From Myxococcales bacterium (GTDB lineage: Bacteria > Myxococcota_A > Polyangia > Haliangiales > Haliangiaceae), in the NCBI GenBank assembly GCA_016794525.1, contig JAEUJY010000164.1:62001-126000 (forward strand): DNA of 64,000 nt. Direction: 5' to 3'. The position numbers and the translations under genes were made by a program. Of this stretch, positions 18,984-46,495 are shown piece by piece (position 1 is the first letter of the stretch; every line of letters starts with the position of its first letter). The notes under the pieces were generated by a model, which was not told the DNA's origin, did no database searches, and saw only the letters and a program-made list of their open reading frames with translations.

Positions 18984-19718
18984 ATGGCGAAGCTGAACCA
19001 GATCCTGGCCATCGAGAAGGGCCTGAAGACCCGCGTGTACGCGGAGTTCACCGAACTGCACAACGCCACCCAGAAGCCGGGCCTGATGAACGGCTTCCAC
19101 AAGGCGTACCAGCCGCGCGACGAGGAGGGCGAGACCTATCCGCCCGAGTCGCAGAAGGTGCAGCACAACGCGAGCGAGGTGTTCGAGCGGGTGGCCGCCA
19201 TCCTCACCGAGCTGTTCGACATCACCGCGACCAAGGACTGGGCGAACTGCCACGCCAAGGCCGACGTGGTCATCGACGGCCGCGTCCTGCTCAAGGACGT
19301 GCCGGCGACGTACCTGCTGTTCCTCGAGAAGCAGCTCTCGGATCTGTCGACGTTCGTCGCCAAGATGGCCGAGCTCGACCCCGGCTCCGACTGGTCGGTC
19401 GATCCGTCGACCGGGCTGTTCCGCACCGAGCCGCAGGCCACCCAGCGCACCAAGAAGGTGCAGCGGCCGATCGTGCTGTACGACGCCACCGAGCACCACC
19501 CGGCGCAGACGCAGCTCATCACCGAGGACGTGATCGCCGGCCAGTGGGTCACGATCAAGCACTCGGGCGCGCTGCCGGCGCCGCGCAAGAAGCTGCTGCT
19601 CGCCCGCATCGAGCGGCTGTCGAACGCGGTGAAGTACGCCCGCGAGCAGGCCAACGCGATCGAGTCGCCCGATCAGAAGCTCGCGAAGGACGTGTTCGCG
19701 TACCTGTTCGCGCCGTGA
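18984..19718 (+). CDS. DUF7873-type conserved protein of unknown function
   Basis: 244 residues from ATG with GAGGGA upstream. The sequence [13 protein letters not shown], the motifs [23 protein letters not shown] and HPAQTQLI, and the C-terminal coiled region ([20 protein letters not shown]) match a family I remember mainly from Actinobacteria (name DUF7873 from memory). It is soluble, with no signal peptide. No function is known to me. A hexanucleotide array begins 9 bases after the stop and an unusual RNA locus follows. Confidence 0.8.
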
Positions 19719-19726
19719 GATAGGCG

Positions 19727-19876
19727 CTTCCGGTTCCGGCTCCGGCTCCGGTTCCGGCTCCGGTTCCGACTCCGGCTCCGGCTCCGGCTCCGGTTCCGAC
19801 TCCGGCACCGGCTCCGGCTCCGGCTCCGGTCCCGACTCCGGTCCCGACTCCGGCTCCGGCTCCGGCTCCGGCTCCG
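19727..19876 (+). repeat. Hexanucleotide array (GGCTCC/GGTTCC/GACTCC)
   Basis: About 25 tandem hexamers, mostly GGCTCC with GGTTCC, GACTCC and GTCCCGACTCC variants, directly after the DUF7873-type gene. Reading frames through it give only Gly-Ser, Arg-Leu-type or Pro-Glu repeats and are not genes. The same unit, on the other strand, makes the array at 54.1-54.3 kb and the E2 linker at 61.4 kb. Confidence 0.9.
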
Positions 19877-19923
19877 ATTTTCGATCCACAGGCACGAGGA
19901 GGTGCCCACCCCGTTTCTCCGTT

Positions 19924-20109
19924 GGGAGACAAGCTCAGACTCAGATTCAAGCTCAAGGAGCAGTCGACCAGGCGTGGAGGTTCGAATCCTCCCGGGAGCA
20001 CCGACGGTTCGCCGTCCGTGACGTCCCGCCCCCGTGGCGAAACTGGTAGACGCGGGTCGCACAATCGCGGCCTGTCTGGTCCGGCTGACGCAATCTGAGA
20101 CTCTCTCCC
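19924..20109 (+). ncRNA. Permuted tRNA-like RNA 1 (Leu-type D-arm)
   Basis: The 3' half precedes the 5' half. 3' half: CGACC (19965-19969), variable loop AGGCGT, T-arm GGAGG-TTCGAAT-CCTCC (19976-19992), acceptor CGGGAGC (19993-19999), A73. A 28-base linker with hairpin GACGG-TTCG-CCGTC follows. 5' half: acceptor GCCCCCG (20028-20034), D-arm TGGCGAAACTGGTAGACGCG, then GGTCG (20055-20059). GGTCG falls at positions 27-31 and pairs fully with CGACC; the acceptor pairs 6 of 7 (one C-A). T8, A14, A15/T48, G18, G19, G26, T54-A58 and C61 are in place. The flanks pair: CTCAGATT with AATCTGAG, and GGGAGA with TCTCCC. No anticodon loop with U33 can be assigned and no CCA is encoded. A decayed tRNA is the main alternative. 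Confidence 0.5.
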
Positions 20110-20141
20110 AGCCTCAACCGGCCGAGCTCGCCATCTCCATC

Positions 20142-20246
20142 GTCGTCGCCCAATGCCCAGGATGCCGGTTCGATTCCGGCAGTCGGCGCCATCTATGCCG
20201 ACTTGGACCAAAGGCAAGTCATGGGTACTAAGACCTGAGCGACGAC
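20142..20246 (+). ncRNA. Permuted tRNA-like RNA 2, CCA encoded
   Basis: 3' half: GCCCA (20155-20159), variable loop, T-arm GCCGG-TTCGATT-CCGGC (20164-20180), acceptor AGTCGGC (20181-20187), G73 and an encoded CCA. After 5 bases, the 5' half: acceptor GCCGACT (20197-20203, 7 of 7 pairs), T8, D-stem GAC/GTC around a loop with AAAGGCA, A26, and TGGGT (20222-20226), which pairs with GCCCA (one G-U). A15/T48 and the T-loop invariants are present. Beyond the anticodon stem, GTCGTCGC (20142-20149) pairs perfectly with GCGACGAC (20239-20246), so the transcript ends are held together. The anticodon loop is replaced by an asymmetric internal loop, and U33 is not evident. Confidence 0.5.
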
Positions 20247-20298
20247 AACCGCCGTTGGCGTGCGAACACGGCACCTGCGCAGGGATGCTGCGCAGTCC

Positions 20299-20338
20299 GA
20301 ACCCCGGAGTAGGCTACACTCCCGGGGTTCACTATTTT
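20299..20338 (+). terminator. Rho-independent-type terminator of the RNA locus
   Basis: A 12-bp stem with one bulged C (GAACCCCGGAGT / ACTCCCGGGGTTC), a 7-base loop, and then ACTATTTT. It is preceded by another perfect 7-bp hairpin (CTGCGCA / TGCGCAG, about 20275-20295). It lies about 50 bases past the second tRNA-like RNA and before the convergent damaged gene. Confidence 0.6.
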
Positions 20339-20361
20339 CGGCGCCGCCGCGGGCGCTGGGG

Positions 20362-20862
20362 TCAGCCCCAGTGCCGCGCGAAGTGCTCGACGAGGATCGC
20401 ATCGTCGACGCCGCTGGGCAGCCAGCCGGCCGGGAACGCCGTCCCGCGCTCGATGGCCAGCGCGACCCGCGCCGCGCGCGCTCCCCAGCCCGGGGCCGCA
20501 GCGACGGCGAGCGACCATCGCGCGGCCACGACCTGGCACGCCCACGCGCTGCCGGCGACGAGCGCGTCAGGCGTCGGCCAGCCGCCAGGCAGCGACTCGT
20601 GCAGCAGGCGCACCAGCAGGTCGCGCGCCGCCGCGTCGCCGTCGCCCGCGCGCAGCGCTTCGGTCAGCAGCTGGCGCTCGAGGTGGAACGAGGTCACCTC
20701 GGCGAGCCCGAGGGTGGCGGCCATCGTGTCGAGCGAGGTCGTCGGCCGCATCGCCAGGAACTCGCCGACCGAGCGGTAGCCGAGCGCCTCGAGCCGGGCG
20801 GTGATGCGCTCGCCGAACAGCGTCTCGACGGCCGCCGCGAGGGTGTGGTTCGGCGACGTCCC
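20362..20862 (-). pseudogene. Orphan C-terminal coding segment fused out of frame to an S41 peptidase
   Basis: About 167 codons with helical, protein-like composition (RITARLEALGYRSVGEFLAM and later helices, ending FARHWG), in a different frame from the S41 gene upstream. It has no credible start codon of its own. The frames join at GCGGGACG (20857-20864); one added base would make a single protein reading LIAG then TSPNHT. It is not like the usual S41 C-terminus, so it is either the decayed remainder of another gene joined by deletion or the product of a frameshift (mutation or sequencing error). Confidence 0.5.
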
Positions 20863-42809: not shown

Positions 42810-43496
42810 ATGTCGACGTGGCCGGCGCTGAAGGCGGACGAGATCGCCGCCGTGATGTTCGATCTCGACGGGACGCTGGTCGACACGATGGGTGGGTTCG
42901 CCGACCTGGCGGCGCTGGTGATGGCCGCCCGCCATGGCGCCGACCCGGTGGAGGCACGGGCGCGTTACCTCCAGACCTCTGGCATCCCGTTCTGCAAGCA
43001 GCTCGAGGTGATCTACCCGGGCCACGCCGCCAACCAGGCCGCGTCCGACGAGTTCGAAGCGCGCAAGCTGGCGGTGTGCGAGGCGGCGATGATGGACGCC
43101 GACACGCTGACCGGCCTGCGCGCGCTGGCCGCCGACGGCCTCAAGCTGGTGGTGTCGTCGAACACCGGCCAGCCGGTCGTCCAGACGTTCCTCGACCGCG
43201 AGGGCTTCCCGTTCGACCTCGCGCTCGGCTTCGACCCGGCGATCGGCCTGGCCAAGGGCGAGCCGCACGTCGCGCAGGTGTGCGCCCGGTTCGGGGTCGC
43301 CCGCCACCAGCTGCTGTTCGTCGGCGACTCGCTCAAGGACGCCGAGCTGGCGCAGGCGGCGGGCGTGCCGTTCGTCGGTCGCCTCGGGACGTTCTCGGCG
43401 GCCGACTTCCGCCGTCAGAACCCGCAGGCGGCCACGGTCGCCAACGTCATCGAGCTGCCGTCGCTCCTCGCGGCGGCCCGAGGGAGCCACCCATGA
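42810..43496 (+). CDS. HAD-superfamily phosphatase
   Basis: 228 residues. Motif I is VMFDLDGTLVDT, motif II VVSSNTG, motif III Lys in IGLAKGEPH, motif IV LFVGDSLKDAELA. The cap is helical (type C1). It overlaps the next nucleotidyltransferase gene by 4 bases (ATGA). In inositol and sugar-nucleotide pathways such enzymes remove phosphate from an intermediate, for example in the last step of di-myo-inositol phosphate synthesis; the match here is only contextual. Confidence 0.88.
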   Translation: MSTWPALKADEIAAVMFDLDGTLVDTMGGFADLAALVMAARHGADPVEARARYLQTSGIPFCKQLEVIYPGHAANQAASDEFEARKLAVCEAAMMDADTLTGLRALAADGLKLVVSSNTGQPVVQTFLDREGFPFDLALGFDPAIGLAKGEPHVAQVCARFGVARHQLLFVGDSLKDAELAQAAGVPFVGRLGTFSAADFRRQNPQAATVANVIELPSLLAAARGSHP

Positions 43497-44227
43497 ACGC
43501 GATCATCCTCGCCGCCGGACTCGGCAGCCGCCTGAAGGACCTCACGACCGCCACCCCCAAGGCGCTGATCGAGGTCGGCGGACGACCCCTCATCGACTAC
43601 GCGCTGGCCTTCGCGCGCGCGGCCGGCGCGACGCACCGGATCGTCGTCGGCGGCTTCCACCACGACGAGGTGGCGGCCCGGGTCGCGGCGGTGGATCCCG
43701 ACGCCCAGGTGCTCGAGAACCGCGAGTACCGCAAGGGGAACCTGATCTCGATGCGGGCCGGCCTGCCGGGGCTCGCCGCCGGCGCCGACTTCTTGCTGAT
43801 GAACACCGACCACGTCTACCGCCCGACCATCGCCGCGGTGGTGGCGGCGGCGTGCCGCGCGGCCACCGAGGTCACCGGCTTCTCCGACACCGATCGGACG
43901 CTCGGCGCCGACGACATGAAGGTCGCCGTCGACGCGGCCGGGCGCGTCGCCGACATGGCCAAGACCCTGGCGCGCTGGGACGTCGGCTACGTCGGGATGA
44001 CGTTCGTGCCCGCCGCGCGCCGCGCCGACTACCTCGCCGCCGCCGAGGCCGTCCTCGCCGCGAAGGGCGAGGCGGTCCACGTCGAGTCGATCCTGGTCGA
44101 GCTGGCGCGGCGCGGGACGCCGCCGGCGCTGGCCGACATCAGCGGCCACGGCTGGCTCGAGATCGACGAGCCGCACGAGCGCGATCACGCCGAGCGCGTG
44201 CTCGCGGCCGAGCGCTGGTGGGCGTGA
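43493..44227 (+). CDS. Sugar/alcohol-phosphate nucleotidyltransferase
   Basis: 244 residues. N-terminal IILAAGLGSRLKDLTTATPK, then ALIEVGGRPLIDY, ENREYRKGNLISM, metal-site Asp in LMNTDHVYRP, and a late GWLEIDEPHE. It is of the same branch as the proteins at 30055 and 45731. The KGN and NTDH motifs are those of LicC/IPCT-like enzymes. It is translationally coupled to the HAD phosphatase and convergent with ino1. Confidence 0.86.
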   Translation: MNAIILAAGLGSRLKDLTTATPKALIEVGGRPLIDYALAFARAAGATHRIVVGGFHHDEVAARVAAVDPDAQVLENREYRKGNLISMRAGLPGLAAGADFLLMNTDHVYRPTIAAVVAAACRAATEVTGFSDTDRTLGADDMKVAVDAAGRVADMAKTLARWDVGYVGMTFVPAARRADYLAAAEAVLAAKGEAVHVESILVELARRGTPPALADISGHGWLEIDEPHERDHAERVLAAERWWA

Positions 44228-45575: not shown

Positions 45576-45693
45576 GTCCTGATCTCCTGAGTGAAGCTCG
45601 CCCTGCGGCGCGAGCGCCGAGGTAGTACCGCAAACGGCGCGGGGGCGGGGGGCTCAGGCGCGGCGATCGTGATGCGGGCCGCAGCCGAGCGAT

Positions 45694-45722
45694 TTGACAG
45701 ACCGTCGATGCAGGTCGAGACT
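45694..45722 (+). promoter_or_regulatory. Possible promoter for the IPCT-like gene
   Basis: A perfect -35 TTGACA (45694-45699), a 17-base spacer and a poor -10 GAGACT. The start ATG at 45731 would lie only a few bases past the transcription start, so the mRNA may be leaderless. No ribosome-binding site is visible. Confidence 0.35.
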
Positions 45723-45730
45723 GCCGGACG

Positions 45731-46456
45731 ATGTCCGACACCGCCGTGATTCTCGCCGCTGGCCGCGGGACGCGCCTCGCTGGCAGCGGTGACGCCGAGA
45801 CCTTCTCCAAGCCGCTGATGGCGGTCGGCGGCAAGACCATGCTCGAGCGGTGCATCGCCGGCTGTCGCGCCGGGGGGGCGCGACGCATCGTCGTGGTCAC
45901 CGGCTTCCGGCACCAGCTGATCGAGGCCGAGGTCGCGCGCCTGAACCGCGGCGACCTCGAGACGGTGTTCAACCCCGCGTGGTCGAAGTCCAACGGCATG
46001 TCGGTGTACGCCGTGCGAGACCACGTCGACGTGCCGTTCGCGCTGATGATGAGCGACCACGTCTTCGAGCCGTCGATCCTCGCCGACCTGCTGGCCCTCG
46101 AGCCCGCCGCTGGCACCGTCACGCTGGCGATCGATCGCAAGATCGCCGAGGTGTTCGATCTCGACGACGCCACCAAGGTGCTGGTCGAGGGCGACAAGAT
46201 CGTCCAGATCCACAAGCAGCTCGCGACCTACAACGCCGTCGACTGCGGCCTGTTCCTCTGCACGCCGGCGGTGTTCCCGGCGCTCGGTGAGGTCGTCGCG
46301 CGCCGCGGCGACACGACGCTGTCCGAAGGCCTGGAGATCATCGGCGCCCGCGGCCAGTTCTTGCCGTTCGACATCGGCGACCGCTGGTGGCAGGACGTCG
46401 ACACGCCCGAGATGCTCGAGCAGGCCTCCGCGCAGCTCGCCAAGCGCGGCCTGTAG
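45731..46456 (+). CDS. CDP-inositol-type nucleotidyltransferase (IPCT-like)
   Basis: 241 residues. VILAAGRGTRLAG at the N-terminus, SKPLMAVGGKTMLER, FNPAWSKSNGMSV, the IPCT-like stretch LMMSDHVFEP, then DLDDATKVLVEGDKI and NAVDCGLFLCTP. The MSDH and DATKV motifs are those of the cytidylyltransferase half of archaeal IPCT/DIPPS, which makes CDP-inositol from inositol-1-phosphate and CTP. Being divergent from ino1 makes this assignment much more likely than that for the other two nucleotidyltransferases. Confidence 0.8.
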   Translation: MSDTAVILAAGRGTRLAGSGDAETFSKPLMAVGGKTMLERCIAGCRAGGARRIVVVTGFRHQLIEAEVARLNRGDLETVFNPAWSKSNGMSVYAVRDHVDVPFALMMSDHVFEPSILADLLALEPAAGTVTLAIDRKIAEVFDLDDATKVLVEGDKIVQIHKQLATYNAVDCGLFLCTPAVFPALGEVVARRGDTTLSEGLEIIGARGQFLPFDIGDRWWQDVDTPEMLEQASAQLAKRGL

Positions 46457-46475
46457 GCCTCCGCGCCGCCGGGGC

Positions 46476-46495
46476 AGGGCTTCGCGAGAAGCCCT
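46476..46495. terminator. GNRA-loop hairpin between convergent genes
   Basis: A perfect 8-bp stem (AGGGCTTC / GAAGCCCT) with tetraloop GCGA, 20 bases after the IPCT-like stop and 8 bases after the ligase-like stop on the other strand. It resembles the first hairpin of the dispersed element in sequence (GGGCTT) but lacks the second hairpin and tail. Confidence 0.5.

Follow-up and report, generated by a model that had tools for sequence, protein, structure and literature searches.

Background

The permuted transfer RNA (tRNA) genes of algae and Thermofilum pendens are rejoined into tRNAs; 34 such genes have been counted, in algae and one archaeon, and permuted bacterial transfer-messenger RNAs (tmRNAs), also cited there, function unligated as two pieces (PMC3978253). 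A Y RNA tethers Rsr to PNPase, and the Y RNA known as YrlA has a tRNA-like domain (PMC7790460). Here we describe a conserved RNA of ~400 nucleotides (nt) at positions 19924-20329 of a 64,000-nt stretch of Myxococcales DNA (contig JAEUJY010000164.1, positions 62,001 to 126,000; hereafter the window), which lies 3' of a gene for a DUF7873 protein at 18984-19718 and contains two circularly permuted tRNA-like modules. This RNA is not among the known natural RNA permutations named in the portion of PMC10085705 that treats them. An earlier note on the window had proposed a permuted tRNA-like RNA at 19965-20059 and had listed tmRNA alone as a permuted RNA of bacteria; this overlooks the YrlA Y RNAs, whose consensus (RF02553) has a T-arm, an acceptor hairpin and a D-arm.

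Two permuted tRNA-like modules

All features given below are on the forward strand of the window. In module 1, the 3' half (19976-19999, or 20000 with A73) precedes the 5' half (20028-20053), both being supported by sequence and covariation. The T-arm GGAGG-TTCGAAT-CCTCC and the acceptor 3' strand CGGGAGC can be read directly at 19976-19992 and 19993-19999; 28 nt after the 3' half come the acceptor strand GCCCCCG (20028-20034) and a Leu-like D-arm (20035-20053), with spacer 1 (20001-20027) forming the remainder between the acceptor strands. The acceptor has six of seven pairs, with C-A at 3:70, and the acceptor, T-arm and D-arm carry the invariant tRNA bases in permuted order, all as previously reported. 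The C-A mismatch (19997/20030) recurs elsewhere, with CA in 6/67 loci. The span reported by the earlier note is real, but it covers only about a quarter of the RNA, and a second, better module follows ~110 nt downstream.

Module 2 consists of GCCGG-TTCGATT-CCGGC, AGTCGGC, G and CCA (20164-20191), five bases, GCCGACT and the D-arm TGGACCAAAGGCAAGTC (20197-20220), such that the halves at 20164-20187 and 20197-20220 form an acceptor with 7/7 pairs and an encoded CCA. Including bases 39-43 (GCCCA), the 3' half occupies 20155-20191 (T-arm 20164-20180, acceptor strand 20181-20187, G73, CCA 20189-20191), spacer 2 (TCTAT) occupies 20192-20196, and the 5' half, with bases 27-31 (TGGGT), occupies 20197-20226 (acceptor strand 20197-20203, D-arm 20204-20220).

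Covariation and detection across loci

The anatomy of this RNA and its covariation are established. In an alignment of 31 sequences, the acceptor stems, T-arms and D-arms of both modules are paired in 98.5% of cells, 26 of 30 pairs show double changes, and the covariation score is 0.819, compared with 0.198 for shuffled and at most 0.181 for slid alignments. The acceptor stems differ almost everywhere between loci yet stay paired. Two further helices join segments B and C of the RNA: a distal helix (20127-20133 with 20256-20262; 86.1% paired, 7/7 pairs with double changes) and a proximal helix (20142-20149 with 20239-20246), the 3' strands of both constituting segment C (20239-20262). The six aligned pairs of the proximal helix are 90.6% paired, every pair showing double changes, and as nine pairs it is 91.1% paired in a set of 22 actinobacterial and phage sequences. 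With the two B:C helices added, that set is 97.3% paired and scores 0.825. Taken alone in the first alignment, the two helices are 88.1% paired and score 0.900 versus 0.256; they were chosen by a scan of the same alignments, and their count of pairs with double changes was reached by 178 of 500 shuffles. A controlled test of B:C pairing gave p<=0.05 in 37 of 67 loci. Because these helices covary, module 2 extends at its anticodon side into a long interrupted helix. The paired segments are thus conserved with compensatory changes in relatives, which supports the earlier proposal of a tRNA-like RNA in permuted order.

The place of the anticodon arm is taken by a local hairpin or a long helix. 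In module 2, at least four of the five pairs between bases 27-31 and 39-43 can form in 52 of 67 loci (mean 14.9 when swapped), and the corresponding stem of module 1 is found in 29 of 67 (mean 10.9 when swapped). The pairing of GGTCG with CGACC that had been proposed for module 1 does form 5/5 in the window but is mostly not kept in relatives: at the same spacing, its equivalent among 10 Myxococcota loci has 5/5 pairs in the window, 4/5 in L027 and 0-3/5 in the other eight, although 4/5 and 5/5 are reached in L032 and L033 when other spacings are allowed. In the same 10 loci, bases 27-31 of module 1 can form a local hairpin instead. In the window this is GGTCGC-ACAATC-GCGGCC (20055-20072), present in the minimum free energy (MFE) structure where an anticodon arm would be, and local hairpins fold at this place in the nine other loci as well.

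Modules were sought in 107 loci, comprising the window, 13 genome contigs, 13 phage or plasmid loci and 80 IMG/VR stretches. A first detector, which uses acceptor pairing, found at least two modules in 75 loci, one in 26 and none in 6, against a background of 0.03 per shuffled sequence. Since it relies on that pairing, the test was repeated by locating only a T-arm and the next D-arm. This pairing-blind search returned 166 successive T-arm/D-arm pairs from 99 of the 107 loci, corresponding to 122 distinct acceptor pairs, 108 of which have at least six of seven bases paired (mean 6.40). Swapping the 3' acceptor strands between loci gives a mean of 3.55, with 3.80 as the highest of 200 swaps; permuted acceptor pairing at DUF7873 loci is above chance. 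Several of the remaining 14, on visual inspection, seem to have the wrong D-arm assigned.

A covariance model of module 2, termed R1, was built from 39 loci, including the window, which scores 115 bits. Outside the training set, 18 of 30 sources in a first batch matched at E<1e-9 (15 above 57 bits), as did 24 of 30 in a second batch (22 above 57 bits, of which two, L139 and L140, have modules identical to those of training loci L035 and L036). No strong match was returned from L016 or L020, which are not DUF7873 loci. Among 95 relatives, R1 matches 76 genomes at E<=0.01, with most rows covering only model positions ~49-121, the part common to tRNAs. Scores above 65 bits occur in 16 genomes, each with DUF7873 beside the match on the same contig, as judged from coordinates, contig extents or upstream sequence. 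The lower matches examined in G019 and G015 are located in tRNA-like arrays of the kind described further below. A 361-base region of the RNA is matched in 7/7 genomes of the genus; of 56 genomes searched, 17 match, some of them through short tRNA matches only.

Leader and flanking elements

The RNA begins with a leader that carries the 5' strand of a helix, P1 (GGGAGA, 19924-19929), able to pair with TCTCCC at 20104-20109, as placed by an alignment of relatives. The P1 strands change together in relatives by eye, for instance as GGAGCG/CGCTCC in Actinomycetota. Next in the leader are four hexamers of the form NTNANN (19934-19957), giving UNA every 6 nt. At least seven of the eight key positions of this repeat are kept in 59 of 67 loci, compared with 44 of 1340 base-shuffled leaders. 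The leader could also be seen as an open reading frame (ORF) of alternating Leu- and Lys-like codons, but codon use and a broken frame speak against this, with no formal coding test. GC-rich loci such as the window use AGA/AGG rather than CGN in the leader, and repeat spacings of 7 nt in L035 and L120 break any frame; for these reasons the leader is taken as an RNA motif. Past the repeat, the strand at 19961-19973 could join module 1 to its own 5' half, since this upstream strand can pair with 20074-20087 in place of bases 27-31. The duplex has energies of -16.2 to -28.2 kcal/mol in 10 Myxococcota loci, as an uncontrolled figure. The probable 3' end is a G+C hairpin followed by CACTATTTT (20300-20338), which is in the MFE structure and has a similar counterpart in aligned relatives; the hairpin fails the rule of the terminator scan. 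Between DUF7873 and the RNA, the window also has a long CCGGCT/CCGGTT simple repeat (19727-19877), absent from 11 other aligned loci.

Linkage to DUF7873 and distribution

The RNA is linked to DUF7873 and widely spread. The DUF7873 gene of the window (244 aa; PF25283, E 3.7e-102) represents a near-constant neighbour: modules are found past the gene in Myxococcota, Actinomycetota, an acidobacterium, a planctomycete and 75 of the 80 viral contigs examined. With DUF7873 as bait, a pattern scan of species genomes, which reaches close relatives only, found 13 loci in Kofleriaceae, other Polyangia, Blastocatellia, Planctomycetota and Nonomuraea; the sequence downstream of DUF7873 was read in L032, L035-L039 and 13 phage and plasmid loci. 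PF25283 matches 27 of 377 genomes of the phylum, 26 of them above the cut-off. Relatives of the protein occur in 73 of 50,697 phage records, 4 plasmid records and 417 IMG/VR stretches, 80 of which were fetched. The pair is carried by phages of Arthrobacter, Gordonia and Rhodococcus, with laboratory hosts named in the phage records. Within flanks of 1.5-4 kb, other gene clusters span at most 7 of 136 loci, the DUF7873 antisense frame excepted.

DUF7873 lies upstream of the RNA on the same strand in most loci. In L150 the RNA is divergent from DUF7873, and in L100/L101 the two are separated by another ORF that looks HNH endonuclease-like by eye, so the RNA is not a fixed tail of the DUF7873 mRNA. 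The RNA is not beside the weak DUF7873 matches L157-L159, and L079, whose sequence ends early, is counted as an exception. In four of the nine phage loci read, the gene sits among many tRNA genes, a setting that speaks for involvement in tRNA surveillance or conflict. The stretches around the 13 bacterial loci contain no tRNA gene, and the RNA is therefore not only a companion of phage tRNA arrays. In Rhodococcus phage NiceHouse, a gene for a Band-7-like membrane protein (L041:4374-5246) is found two features past DUF7873.

The AlphaFold2 model of DUF7873 has a predicted local distance difference test (pLDDT) score of 92.9. At E<=0.01, nothing matched in PHROGs, NCBIfam or PADLOC, and the best PDB match by sequence has E 0.2. 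Weak Cas7 rows, the crAss-like phage protein A0A7M1RW91 and VIA Z up to 6.6 serve as structural leads only.

Signs of tRNA-type processing

CCA is encoded at positions 74-76 in 29 of 67 modules 1 and 33 of 67 modules 2, where 0.97 would be expected for each. G1 is present in 55 and 59 of the 67, respectively, position -3 is mostly a pyrimidine (61 and 58), position -2 mostly a purine (53 and 56), and T is found at -1 in 48 modules 2. These flanking bases and the CCA match the needs of RNase P and tRNase Z, and such comparative signs suggest that both enzymes may cut the RNA. The distance between the acceptor strands varies from 5 to 106 nt in module 1 and from 6 to 185 nt in module 2. One spacer 1 (L077:3341-3436) has a predicted 96-nt tRNA-Arg nested in it; for the near twin L076, ARAGORN reports no tRNA in the spacer, though a 7/7 acceptor pair is present there too.

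Proposed mechanism and alternative explanations

We propose, with about an even chance of being right, that RNase P and tRNase Z cut this RNA into three pieces that work with DUF7873 as a tRNA-mimicking ribonucleoprotein. The non-coding RNA beside DUF7873 would fold into two tRNA-like elbows, in each of which the 3' half (T-arm, 3' acceptor strand and often CCA) is transcribed ahead of the 5' half (5' acceptor strand and D-arm). The two enzymes would cut between the halves, as on pre-tRNAs, and the acceptor stems and anticodon-side helices, perhaps with P1, would keep the three resulting pieces together. The product would be two mature-looking tRNA heads lacking an anticodon. The predicted partner is DUF7873, for which the UNA-repeat leader offers a candidate site; we infer that the protein binds the RNA, perhaps at these repeats, and acts on tRNA-handling enzymes, which the mimicry would draw to the particle or distract. 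By analogy, the particle probably acts as Y RNAs are thought to. Presentation of both elbows at once might be directed at the ribosome, a synthetase or tRNA nucleases. That this is the first RNA with two permuted, CCA-ended tRNA heads, made of three unligated pieces in a DUF7873 particle that presents both elbows simultaneously, and found in several phyla as well as phages, is a tentative suggestion that we would put at somewhat below even.

A number of observations weigh against the proposed particle. On the RNA side, the window RNA folds only modestly better than shuffled sequence (z -2.29, with 5 of 100 shuffles as good), controlled tests reach p<=0.05 for the joining helix in 21 of 67 loci and for P1 in 11 of 67, CCA is not encoded in about half of the modules, T at -1 is a weak signal for module 1 (30/67), and a scan found no promoter- or terminator-like site. 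In L083, one of five loci scanned there, ARAGORN calls a canonical tRNA-Ser that spans the leader and the 3' half of module 1 (downstream stretch 69-158). Arrays of tRNA-like units in G019, G015 and G028 also reach 54-57 bits with R1, and R1 matches below these scores are hence not specific. Sub-threshold YrlA matches are likewise unspecific, as they also occur in 7 of 14 control genomes. On the protein side, DUF7873 is found with no RNA nearby in L045, which has a weak match ~2 kb away, and in L107; L108, which shares the downstream sequence of L107 and was not run against R1, also has no RNA beside the gene, and the second-group copies L160-L162 give weak or partial R1 matches. The DUF7873 model returned no informative structural match, Foldseek finding none at E<=1e-3 in PDB or BFVD.

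Several alternatives invoke a conventional tRNA or tmRNA. In the window, ARAGORN reports no tRNA or tmRNA gene and no Rfam family reaches its gathering score, the best sub-threshold tRNA (RF00005) match at the locus being 14.4 bits; no intact tRNA is found there that would explain the halves as decayed fragments, a possibility that the earlier note had raised against itself. If the RNA were a genuine tRNA precursor, with halves rejoined at the anticodon side into decoding tRNAs as in algae and Thermofilum, the permuted order, the T-arm, D-arm and acceptor features, the encoded CCA and the 27-31:39-43 stems kept in many modules would all be expected. No U33 or anticodon can be assigned, however, as the earlier note had itself conceded; the anticodon side of module 2 runs on into covarying helices, one segment of ~165 nt carries both the 5' half of module 1 and the 3' half of module 2, and the genome carries 63 tRNA-model matches above the cut-off. 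Lacking an assignable anticodon, and with the module 1 anticodon stem mostly not kept, the RNA is not read as a decoding tRNA, so that the idea of a permuted bacterial tRNA finds no support and such a precursor is very improbable. Nor can we give much credence at all to remains of tandem tRNAs or of an integration site, in which halves of two neighbouring tRNAs, the 3' half of the first and the 5' half of the second, would have ended up side by side. L170 and L174 show how tandem tRNAs can imitate a permuted order, and some phage copies do sit among tRNA genes, but the acceptors differ between the two modules and covary across phyla, the flanking helices covary too, and the bacterial stretches are free of tRNA genes; a tRNA-array scar, which the pairing-blind acceptor test and the covariation already contradict, was rejected. 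A tmRNA-like factor, with one or both heads charged and entering the ribosome, is improbable. The CCA ends would suit it, module 2 leads into a long interrupted helix, and permuted tmRNAs work unligated as two pieces (PMC3978253). Against it, tmRNA models find nothing in the window at the gathering score, nor in 19700-20400 when matches up to E 10 are allowed, and a full-length tmRNA match (164.5 bits) lies elsewhere in G000. RF01849 is found in 0/56 genomes, G3-U70 is limited to a single module 1 out of 67 and to none of the 67 modules 2, and no conserved tag frame was noticed, no systematic search having been made. A tmRNA as such was rejected on the missing model match, the near absence of G3-U70 and the tmRNA elsewhere in G000. 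As in module 2, the tRNA-like part of tmRNA continues into a long interrupted helix.

Other explanations concern function. A cis-acting element in the 3' untranslated region (UTR) of the DUF7873 mRNA, at which cleavage by RNase P and tRNase Z would stabilise the transcript or terminate it, would account for the usual position downstream on the same strand and for the tRNA-like cleavage signals; we consider it as improbable as the tmRNA-like factor, given the divergent arrangement in L150, the intervening ORF in L100/L101, and two modules with long-range helices that exceed the needs of a processing signal. Alternatively, the heads may serve in phage-host conflict as decoys or resistant substrates, keeping effectors that cleave or modify tRNAs occupied or inhibited. 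The many phage records and IMG/VR stretches that encode DUF7873 relatives, some of them among tRNA genes, speak for this, whereas the presence of the RNA in every genome searched of this Myxococcota genus (prophages possibly included) and the lack of a PADLOC match speak against it, leaving it unlikely.

Whichever function applies, the locus defines a widespread RNA family with strong covariation support that is absent from Rfam 15 at gathering thresholds, and ties to it a protein family of unknown function. Bacterial permuted tRNA mimicry thereby extends beyond tmRNA and Y RNAs. The pair offers a compact two-component system for asking what tRNA mimics do in bacteria and phages, a question open to test because the carrier phages have named laboratory hosts. 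None of the titles and abstract openings listed by literature searches deals with DUF7873 or such an RNA; as most subscription papers lie outside the collection searched, novelty in print is unproven.

Comparison with known RNAs

GOLLD and ROOL are large structured RNAs found in phages. The present RNA resembles them as a large structured phage RNA but differs in that the window has no Rfam gathering match. With the permuted tRNA genes of algae and Thermofilum pendens, which are marked by a BHB motif and the ligation of their products into one tRNA, it shares a 3' half placed before the 5' half and a spacer between the acceptor ends, and it differs in having no assignable anticodon and two modules per RNA. 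Like two-piece tmRNA, it has a permuted gene order and pieces that are expected to stay unligated; unlike it, there are two tRNA-like heads, almost no G3-U70 and no model match.

The closest described kind is YrlA among the Y RNAs: its tRNA-like domain is permuted in the same way, and it is this order in the model itself, more than the weak scores, that counts. In a permissive Rfam scan, YrlA was matched by module 2 of L113 (36.4 bits), L040 (32.9), L057 (29.7), L039 (28.7) and L049 (27.9), and module 2 of L113 aligns, below threshold, to the permuted tRNA-like domain of RF02553. The RF02553 gathering score of 69 is reached by no DUF7873 locus scanned, and the window region gives no match up to E 10. 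In G000, where TROVE was searched, its sole match is on contig C7 and the RNA on C47; no Ro60/TROVE is named among the annotated neighbours of nine phage loci, most of which are labelled 'hypothetical protein'. Y RNAs of the YrlA type bind Ro60 by means of a stem formed from their two ends. As it falls below the YrlA gathering score and is unlinked to Ro60/TROVE in G000, the RNA is not filed as a Y RNA.

Arrays of 4-6 permuted tRNA-like units with anticodon arms were observed at L165:10016-10990 (+ strand) and in L166, L167 and L169 (- strand). Their loops read by eye as GCA, CTT, CAA, TCC, CCA, GTT and others, the units have complementary flanks and the motifs CCTACACGC / ACTCGG, and the L165 array is followed by an ORF with a vWA match just below the cut-off. 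With sub-threshold YrlA matches, these may be Y RNA arrays. The motif CCTACACGC followed by a T-arm was matched in 21 IMG/VR stretches (L182-L202). In G000 itself, a dense tRNA array in mostly canonical order (C7:40244-47899; L177) surrounds the TROVE (Ro60) match at 45599-46486 and has a weak YrlA match at 43395-43519, another such match (39.4 bits) being found at C38:16678-16741.

The likeness of the DUF7873-linked RNA to YrlA thus lies in the permuted tRNA-like domain, with its T-arm, acceptor stem-loop and D-arm. The RNA differs from YrlA in its two modules, encoded CCA, long variable spacers and UNA-repeat leader, and, whereas YrlA is found beside Ro60/TROVE, it is found beside DUF7873 instead.
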